NCBI GenBank assembly: GCA_009923755.1
Contig: RFSW01000008.1
Span: 1-32,533, forward strand
Direction of reading: 5' to 3'
Length of the DNA stretch: 32,533 bases
Origin: Betaproteobacteria bacterium
GTDB lineage: Bacteria; Pseudomonadota; Gammaproteobacteria; Burkholderiales; UBA3065
Shown: positions 24,540-32,013 of the stretch, piece by piece
How the letters are laid out: each line of letters begins with the position of its first letter
How positions within the stretch are numbered: position 1 is the first letter of the stretch
The notes under the pieces: generated by a model
Told to the model about the DNA's origin: nothing
Database searches by the model: none
What the model saw: only the letters and a program-made list of their open reading frames with translations
Program-made: the position numbers and the translations under genes

Positions 24540-24545
24540 TATAAT
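24540..24545 (+). promoter_or_regulatory. -10 box (TATAAT) for the metK leader
   Basis: A consensus TATAAT is present; no good -35 hexamer is seen 16-18 bases upstream. The predicted start near 24552 falls exactly at the 5' side of the leader's first stem, which supports it. Confidence 0.55.
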
Positions 24546-24551
24546 CGACTC

Positions 24552-24638
24552 ACCGCCGAGTTAATCAGGACAACTTGCAGGGCGGCCGGCCGGACCCAGT
24601 CCGTGATATCGGGAATCTGCTAAAGCGTCGCCTGCTCC
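24552..24638 (+). ncRNA. Candidate SAM-II-like riboswitch aptamer in the metK leader
   Basis: CCGCC (24553-24557) pairs with GGCGG (24581-24585), enclosing a loop that ends CTTGCAG (24574-24580). A small hairpin CGGAC-CCA-GTCCG (24591-24603) follows, then GCTAAAGC (24619-24626). CAGGAC in the first loop (24566-24571) can pair with GTC...CTG (24627-24634) as a pseudoknot. I recall the CTTGCA and GCTAAA elements and the loop-to-tail pseudoknot from SAM-II, which binds S-adenosylmethionine, the MetK product. The linker is longer than in the classic form. This is a by-eye match only. Confidence 0.45.
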
Positions 24639-24639
24639 G

Positions 24640-24680
24640 ATCCCCGGGCTGGCCGTCGCCGGCCAACGGGGATTTTTATT
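24640..24680 (+). terminator. Intrinsic terminator/attenuator before metK
   Basis: ATCCCCG (24640-24646) pairs with CGGGGAT (24667-24673). An inner stem TGGCCG/CGGCCA (24650-24655/24660-24665) has the loop TCGC, and five T residues run from 24673 to 24677. It lies 29 bases before the metK start and after the metK -10 box, so it can only act as an attenuator of metK. The upstream GGCCGGCC (24583-24590) could pair with the inner stem as an antiterminator. Confidence 0.75.
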
Positions 24681-24708
24681 GTGCGGCCACACCGCAACAG
24701 GAGCAGCA

Positions 24709-25887
24709 GTGAGCGATTACCTTTTTACCTCGGAGTCGGTCTCCGAGGGCCATCCGGACAAGGTCGCCGACCAGATCTCGGATGCCATTCTTGACGCCAT
24801 CCTTGAGCAGGACCCGGTCTCGCGCGTCGCCGCCGAGACGCTGACCAATACCGGCCTCGTGGTGCTCGCCGGCGAGATCACCACGCAAGCCAATGTCGAC
24901 TACATCGAGGTGGCGCGCGAGACCATCAAGCACATCGGTTACGACGACACCGACTACGGCATCGACCACAAAGGCTGCGCCGTACTGGTGGCCTACGACA
25001 AGCAGAGCAACGACATCGCCCAGGGTGTCGATCGGGCCTCTGACGACTACCTCAACCTTGGCGCCGGTGACCAGGGTCTGATGTTCGGCTATGCCTGTTC
25101 CGAAACCCCGGTCCTGATGCCTGCCGCCATCTACTACGCACACCGGCTGGTCGAGCGTCAGGCCATGCTGCGCAAGGACGGGCGCCTGCCCTTCCTTCGC
25201 CCGGACGCCAAGAGCCAGGTCACGCTGCGCTATGTCGATGGCGTGCCGGTGAGCGTGGACACCGTGGTGCTCTCCAGTCAGCACGCCCCGGAGATGTCAG
25301 ATGGCCCGACCATGAAGCCGGCCTTCATCGAGGCGGTGATGGAGGAGATCATCAAGCCGGTGCTACCCAAGGAATGGCTCACCACCGACACCAAGTACCT
25401 GATCAACCCCACCGGGCGCTTTGTCATCGGCGGGCCGCAGGGTGACTGCGGGCTGACCGGCCGCAAGATCATCGTCGACACCTACGGCGGTGCCTGTCCG
25501 CACGGCGGTGGCGCCTTCTCCGGTAAGGATCCCACCAAAGTGGACCGCTCGGCCGCCTATGCCGCGCGCTATGTTGCCAAGAACGTGGTCGCCGCCGGAC
25601 TCGCCACTCAGTGCCAGATTCAGGTGGCTTACGCCATCGGCGTGGCGCGCCCGATGAACGTCACGGTCAACACTTTTGGCACTGGCAAAGTCAGTGACGA
25701 GCGCATCGCCGAGTTGGTGAATACTCACTTCGACCTGCGCCCGAAGGGCATCATCCAGATGCTCGACCTGCAACGGCCGGTCTACCGCAAGACCGCGGCC
25801 TACGGGCACTTTGGCCGCGAGGAGCCGGAGTTCACTTGGGAGCAGACGGACAAGGCTGCATCGCTGCGTTCCTCGGCAGGCCTCTAG
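24709..25887 (+). CDS. metK: S-adenosylmethionine synthetase
   Basis: Makes SAM from methionine and ATP in the cytosol. It has 392 residues, normal length. The start [20 protein letters not shown] uses GTG at 24709 with AGGAG five bases upstream; an upstream TTG in the terminator tail is not credible. [12 protein letters not shown] matches the methionine-loop family signature. [22 protein letters not shown] matches the second signature. [11 protein letters not shown] and [20 protein letters not shown] are typical. It is preceded by a structured leader with a terminator, so expression is probably controlled by attenuation. The RND operon starts 106 bases downstream. Confidence 0.98.
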
Positions 25888-31925: not shown

Positions 31926-31934
31926 CCGATTCGT

Positions 31935-32004
31935 TTCCGAGGAGCGCTGCGAGGCTACAGGCCCCAGGCTCGGGCACCGCGACAGCGGAGAACGGCGCTC
32001 ACCC
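31935..32004 (+). ncRNA. S-adenosylhomocysteine (SAH) riboswitch
   Basis: The conserved core reads CCGAGGAGCGCTGCGAGG, then CCAGGCTCGGG, then AACGGCGCTCACC. This matches the known SAH riboswitch consensus found upstream of ahcY in proteobacteria. GAGCGC (31942-31947) pairs with GCGCTC (31995-32000). CCGAG (31937-31941) pairs with CTCGG (31969-31973) as the pseudoknot. SAH is the substrate of the gene that follows, and the switch turns expression on when SAH builds up. Confidence 0.9.
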
Positions 32005-32013
32005 CAATCGACA

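Follow-up and report, generated by a model that had tools for sequence, protein, structure and literature searches.

The metK gene of the window, by which we mean the whole stretch of 32,533 nucleotides analysed, is preceded by an RNA element, here called K-type, and the sequence evidence makes it very probable that this putative riboswitch senses SAM, belongs to the SAM-II superfamily and represses metK by hiding its ribosome site and, here, also by termination. The element is a SAM-II-like pseudoknot spanning 24553-24629, just 5' of a gene at 24709..25887 (+ strand) identified as a methionine adenosyltransferase (TIGR01034, 592 bits; Pfam S-AdoMet_synt N, M and C), and the ribosome site AGGAG (Shine-Dalgarno 24699-24703) stands ahead of GTG 24709. 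The parts of the leader are as follows.

24540 to 24545, + strand: -10 box TATAAT, read from the sequence; relatives L011 and L012 have CGCTATAAT at the same place
24553 to 24557, + strand: P1 5' strand CCGCC, which pairs with 24581-24585 and covaries at all five positions
24558 to 24564, + strand: third strand GAGUUAA, whose SAM-II counterpart is GAUUUGA/GAUUUAA
24569 to 24571, + strand: P2b 5' strand GAC, which pairs with GUC 24627-24629; GAAC/GUUC or AGC/GCU in relatives
24574 to 24580, + strand: CUUGCAG, containing the core UUGC and the P2a 5' strand GCAG (24577-24580), which pairs with 24617-24620; P2a covaries
24581 to 24585, + strand: P1 3' strand GGCGG, from covariation
24586 to 24616, + strand: variable linker, predicted by prefix folds to form a hairpin here (24586-24612); its length differs widely among relatives
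24617 to 24629, + strand: CUGCUAAAGCGUC, comprising the P2a 3' strand, the ligand core GCUAAAG and the P2b 3' strand GUC; near invariant in 147 metK leaders
24632 to 24638, + strand: anti-Shine-Dalgarno arm CUGCUCC, which pairs with 24700-24706
24640 to 24680, + strand: intrinsic terminator hairpin AUCCCC...GGGGAU, then UUUUUAUU; -26 kcal/mol, nested within the Shine-Dalgarno hairpin
24700 to 24706, + strand: Shine-Dalgarno region GGAGCAG, sequestered by 24632-24638 in the predicted fold
24709 to 25887, + strand: metK, with a presumed GTG start at 24709

Placed from the -10 box, the transcript start is expected at about 24551-24553, the 5' edge of P1; a consensus scan upstream of TATAAT 24540-24545 gave no match for a -35 box. 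The original prediction, made from the letters of this DNA, had described a -10 box, a stem at the 5' end, CTTGCAG, GCTAAAGC and a terminator before the ribosome site, and all of them are found where it placed them, GCTAAAGC at 24619-24626. The linker hairpin that it included is also present (24586-24612), but is not conserved; since linker length is free and many relatives have no hairpin at all, we rejected it as a part of the aptamer. The possible loop-tail pseudoknot is borne out as the pairing of 24569-24571 with 24627-24629 and of 24577-24580 with 24617-24620, and the covariation among metK leaders that had been proposed as a check was indeed found.

The pseudoknot is of the H type and is built from P1 CCGCC/GGCGG, P2b GAC/GUC and P2a GCAG/CUGC, together with UUGC and GCUAAAG. 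Both of its helices covary. Across 80 metK leaders, 92.3% of the cells of the pseudoknot pairing are standard pairs and 11 of the 15 pairs show double changes; none of 500 shuffles came up to the leaders in percentage paired, in counts of double changes or in covariation score, in a control that ignores kinship, by which the double-change measures were little affected in the tool's own trials. When the partner strand was slid by one to three columns in the same leaders, every register fell below 48% paired. The P2 covariation was not fitted by the search, because covariance model R1, which lies behind the alignments, encoded the five P1 pairs only and contained no P2. Among the variants, P1 occurs as CCGCC/GGCGG, CCACC/GGUGG and CCGUC/GACGG, P2a as GCAG/CUGC, GCGG/CCGC and GCGA/UCGC, and P2b as GAC/GUC and GAAC/GUUC, with AGC/GCU in a Pseudomonas-like family; adding these Pseudomonas-like relatives brings the paired cells to 96.5% and P2b to both G-C/A-U and A-U/G-C variation. 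The consensus of the relatives reads P1, GAGUUAA, GACAACUUGC, P1, a variable linker, AAAU and YUGCUAAAGCGUCG. The full-length minimum-energy fold (z -1.8) is poor evidence because pseudoknots are not modelled in it.

The core letters can be compared with bases of known function. In the crystal structure of SAM-V, which is described as binding SAM in virtually the same manner as SAM-II, U9 and U20 contact the sulfonium, U47 the adenine and A50 the amino acid end of SAM, and A48 is also named as a contact (PMC6061858). U9, U20, U47 and A50 align with 24561 (the first U of the third strand), 24576 (the second U of UUGC, the anchor used to line up the leaders), 24621 (the U of GCU) and 24624 (the third A of GCUAAA). 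The K-type counterparts of these SAM-V/SAM-II contact bases are invariant in 147 metK leaders, 69 of which were chosen by the exact core, so that the 80 model-based leaders are the fairer sample for invariance. In the third strand, the U-U at 24561-24562 is kept in all 142 readable leaders, and GAGUUAA is found in 110 of them and in the window, with GAUUUAA in six. Position 24560, the counterpart of the SAM-V base U8 which hydrogen-bonds the base holding the adenine of SAM, is G in 129 of the 142 K-type leaders and U in 13.

Beyond what had been predicted, the leader has a second and more widely conserved platform, a hairpin between the segment right after P2b and the Shine-Dalgarno region, formed in the window by CUGCUCC 24632-24638 and GGAGCAG 24700-24706. 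For the 18 nt that begin with the P2b 3' strand, pairing with the leader's own Shine-Dalgarno and start region was stronger than with swapped partners in 131 of the 147 leaders, with means of -14.0 kcal/mol for own and -9.9 kcal/mol for other leaders' partners, and the ribosome site was hidden in the minimum-energy fold of 124 of 146 leaders, versus 55 when the 3' part was shuffled. Taken by itself, the 3' hairpin is significant (z -4.1), and the combined Shine-Dalgarno/terminator hairpin reaches a stability of -43 kcal/mol. The terminator, defined by a strict rule, was found in 19 of 147 leaders versus 3.6 in shuffles; such terminators stand in all four leaders that precede metK in the genus and in some leaders of Rhodocyclaceae type, among them those of Thauera, Accumulibacter and Propionivibrio. 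The run of U residues is proper in the window and in genus member L002, and weaker and interrupted in genus members L003 and L004. Since the Shine-Dalgarno hairpin is widely conserved and the terminator is local, the widely conserved output would be translational and the terminator a lineage addition. Some 20 nt past GCTAAA, the metK leaders among L001-L267 repeatedly show an apical hairpin, AGYCGGYNACGCCGR, whose GGYNACGC is found in 38 of 147 leaders versus 1.3 expected from shuffles.

These parts suggest the following mechanism. The nascent leader would fold P1 and then the pseudoknot helices P2a and P2b. SAM would lock P1 and P2, so that CUGCUCC after P2b would be free to pair with and hide the Shine-Dalgarno region. 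In the window's lineage the same SAM-bound fold would leave the strong terminator intact, so that SAM would repress metK in transcription as well as in translation. In the absence of SAM, the P1/P2a strand and the linker could pair with the arm and the 5' half of the terminator, which is a candidate ON state; it would have to be kinetic because the Shine-Dalgarno/terminator hairpin is so stable (-43 kcal/mol). In the window, pairing between the arm and the P1 3' strand is worth -15.1 kcal/mol, and in all four genus members the P1 3' strand and linker can pair with the 5' half of the terminator. Covariation gives no support to this ON-state pairing, and a general anti-sequestor role of the P1 3' strand was rejected, since it paired no better than swapped (82/147) or shuffled (77/147) partners; we keep it as a genus-level candidate only, predicted from modelled pairing. 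No general ON-state partner was found over the 147 leaders.

The leader DNA itself matches relatives in its own genus and short core stretches across the order. Model R1 recovers the element in its own genome with E = 3.7e-17, a genus mate of the window being in the training set, and within the order it matches 195 of 300 genomes, spread over 101 of 134 genera, a tally that takes in cousin elements upstream of other genes. In a phylum-wide sample, matches beyond the order were almost confined to one family, which resembles the Pseudomonas family; there (L174, L176-L178, L180-L186, around 1501-1609) the element stands before a protein of about 105 aa (MTCPNPHVRLAPITTG...) with no Pfam or NCBIfam family, and a match of the P11 Pseudomonas sRNA adjoins one locus. 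Within the copies read, 83 of 182 lie directly before metK, at 56-122 nt except for one at 251 nt. An exact-core scan of named GTDB genomes gave at least 80 readable loci, and 69 of the 80 listed have metK 54-125 nt downstream; among the matches listed, those before metK come from Herbaspirillum, Cupriavidus, Massilia, Undibacterium, Oxalobacter, Polynucleobacter, Bordetella, Thauera, Dechloromonas, Accumulibacter and others. When the metK leaders of the order were checked, 38 of 116 genomes had K-type and one had its cousin type X, about a third in all (39/116). Two observations stand apart: the exact K-type core also turns up on a contig labelled Bacteroidetes (L250:7071-7260), where P1 has letters of its own, GUCGUG/CACGAC, and another SAM-II-like match follows after some 120 nt, with RF00521 and RF01726 scores below cut-off; and in families f12, f9 and f29 (L037, L029, L151, L064, L065) K-type or type X stands before AAA/MoxR-like ATPases and an HD-like protein, targets outside obvious SAM metabolism.

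The type X cousin (GAUUUGA, CAGCUUGC) is found before a Cys/Met PLP enzyme, before metX and once before metK. It scores 22-42 bits with RF00521, some copies being above the cut-off of 36; those reaching it (41.7, 39.4 and 37.8 bits) stand before metX, metK or other genes. In one genome, a SAM-II of 41.7 bits (RF00521) with a terminator stands directly before metK (L393:278-350). Among 30 metX leaders, drawn via TIGR01392 although no match was above its cut-off, four have a SAM-II-like core with RF00521 scores of 26-39 bits, and in L312, L316, L327 and L336 type X is followed by terminators. Tandem leaders, in which a type X SAM-II copy, in places with a terminator after it, precedes a K-type copy, were seen in L007, L032-L035, L044-L046, L054, L056, L062, L063, L072, L093, L096, L108, L114, L116, L119-L121, L128 and L133; the downstream gene encodes a protein of about 100 aa starting MYDC/MFDC, one of which was scanned and gave no Pfam or NCBIfam family, and a MATE transporter (PF01554) is close by. 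Matches to RF02424 (Bp2_Cand287), an sRNA candidate that had been located ahead of methionine genes in Burkholderia (PMC3521395), overlap type X elements on the opposite strand at scores below cut-off. Finally, in other families of the order, where K-type is absent, a SAH riboswitch of 54.9-62.2 bits lies directly before metK (L387:234-304, L390:127-195, L392:282-356); control of metK by SAH would follow another logic.

Scans with Rfam were silent on the K-type element. Over the whole window, Rfam 15 reported above cut-off only a tRNA and a SAH riboswitch at 31933-32007, and none at the metK leader; a permissive scan of the leader (401 bases, E<=10) gave no RF00521 row, and its matches to NsiR1 and AS-traG, below cut-off, were rejected as chance likeness to GC-rich hairpins. 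When K-type copies were scanned at E<=1, RF00521, RF01726 and RF01826 reported none of the betaproteobacterial ones. At the metK leader there was no match to RF01826 (SAM-V), RF01727 (SAM/SAH) or RF01057 (SAH), whose sole match in the window is that at 31933-32007. The scan proposed with the original prediction thus gave no SAM-II, SAM-V, SAM/SAH or SAH match there, and the predicted SAM-II-like pseudoknot before metK, with a terminator ahead of the ribosome site, stands and lies out of Rfam's reach. The SAH riboswitch (RF01057, 49.6 bits) precedes ahcY (32106 onward), so that the SAM cycle genes of this locus would be served by two different riboswitches.

Against the SAM-II reading we count the silence of Rfam, the G at 24560, an anti-sequestor at chance level, a Shine-Dalgarno/terminator hairpin stable enough to demand a kinetic ON state, and the presence of the element at only about a third of the metK genes sampled in the order. 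The G bears on the ligand: it replaces U beside the base holding the adenine, and a K-type RNA that kept the SAM-II scaffold and turned to a different SAM-cycle compound (SAH, both SAM and SAH, or something polyamine-related) would have parallels in the SAM-I variants switched to spermidine (PMC10853860) and in the SAH riboswitches at metK in L387, L390 and L392. We nevertheless hold such a change unlikely, given that the gene is overwhelmingly metK and that the counterparts of the two uridines which discriminate SAM from SAH through O4, of the adenine-pairing U and of the A at the amino acid end are invariant (PMC6061858). That K-type forms a separate ligand-specificity class on the SAM-II scaffold, with its preference shifted by the U-to-G change and by the new P2b flank, for instance towards both SAM and SAH or towards another adenosyl compound, and that beta-proteobacteria use it alongside true SAM-II, sometimes in tandem, seems to us similarly improbable. 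It is scarcely credible that the leader has nothing to do with SAM, works as an attenuator through a bound protein or a leader peptide, and resembles SAM-II by convergence: the conserved apical hairpin AGYCGGYNACGCCGR, present in many leaders, is foreign to the SAM-II platforms known, but helix order, core letters and spacings are identical to SAM-II, the cousins score as SAM-II in Rfam, and the targets are metK, metX and Cys/Met PLP enzymes.

As for the output, a SAM switch acting through translation only, with the terminator-like hairpin serving as a stiff part of the Shine-Dalgarno hairpin and terminating little, is a plausible though not the favoured reading: sequestration is the conserved platform, the terminator rule fits just 19 of 147 leaders, and the U-run is interrupted in two of four genus members (L003, L004). 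The -26 kcal/mol stem with its proper U-run in the window and L002, the same arrangement in several Rhodocyclaceae-type relatives and the fact that betaproteobacterial SAM-II is most often tied to terminators speak for termination, and we retain the SAM-II-type switch with both outputs.

In a survey of methionine regulation by Leyn et al. 2014 (PMC4239095), an RNA element with a proposed pseudoknot, called metXZ, is described in beta-proteobacteria at metX and metZ only; metK is not covered by it and has no known regulator, attempts to find one having failed. This element resembles K-type as a betaproteobacterial methionine-pathway leader with a proposed pseudoknot and differs in its restriction to metX/metZ. 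Since the metX leaders L312, L316, L327 and L336 carry type X followed by terminators, metXZ is probably SAM-II. For the metK element, no description was found in the literature searched, which took in only part of the subscription journals and no supplementary files. For a gene as central as that of SAM synthase, K-type would supply the missing regulator in about a third of the order's sampled genomes, those related to Bordetella, Achromobacter, Cupriavidus, Massilia, Polynucleobacter and Thauera included; judging from their leaders, many beta-proteobacteria appear able to stop making SAM once it is abundant. The SAM-II scaffold would then reach well past what Rfam 15 detects, with the metX/metZ element tied to it, and would offer a natural set for comparing SAM-II variants with two outputs, ribosome-site hiding and termination.

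Among known riboswitches, the SAM/SAH riboswitch (RF01727) is also a small pseudoknot before metK in a proteobacterial order, but it has a different core, gives no match and is reported only in Rhodobacterales (PMC2864571). SAM-V (RF01826) shares the SAM-binding core, the H-type pseudoknot and control via the ribosome site, whereas K-type has no RF01826 match, has its Shine-Dalgarno in a hairpin of its own, well downstream, where SAM-V has it in the P2 extension, and belongs to a different clade. SAM-II with long loops (RF01726) has the SAM-II core with enlarged loops and matches neither the window nor betaproteobacterial K-type. The closest likeness is with SAM-II (RF00521), whose consensus has the same order of parts and the same small spacings: P1, third strand, P2b, a two-nucleotide step, CUUGC, linker, GCUAAAG, a one-nucleotide step and P2b. 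K-type shares with it a covarying H-type P1/P2, the UUGC and GCUAAA core, the U-U of the third strand and a target in methionine/SAM synthesis (metK at 69 of the 80 loci listed), and terminator platforms are common in SAM-II too. It differs in staying below the RF00521 gathering cut-off, in GAGUUAA instead of the third strand GAUUUGA/GAUUUAA, in an ACAAC instead of a GC-rich P2b flank, in a P2b of only 3-4 bp, in having metK and not metA/metX/metZ as target, and in a Shine-Dalgarno hairpin 50-70 nt downstream. The original prediction had thought a SAM-II-like aptamer with a terminator before metK unusual; this is true of the metK target and not of the terminator, to which SAM-II is mostly tied (Barrick and Breaker 2007; Huang and Lilley 2018, PMC6061858). 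It had also raised an undescribed class, which we do not follow: K-type has the core of SAM-II, with the same succession of helices and the same spacings, and agrees with it in nearly every structural feature compared, so that it should act alike, save for the Rfam score and the third-strand consensus. We therefore place it as a diverged SAM-II subclass, in which metK as a SAM-II-type target and the invisibility to Rfam are unusual, and the coupling to a terminator is not.
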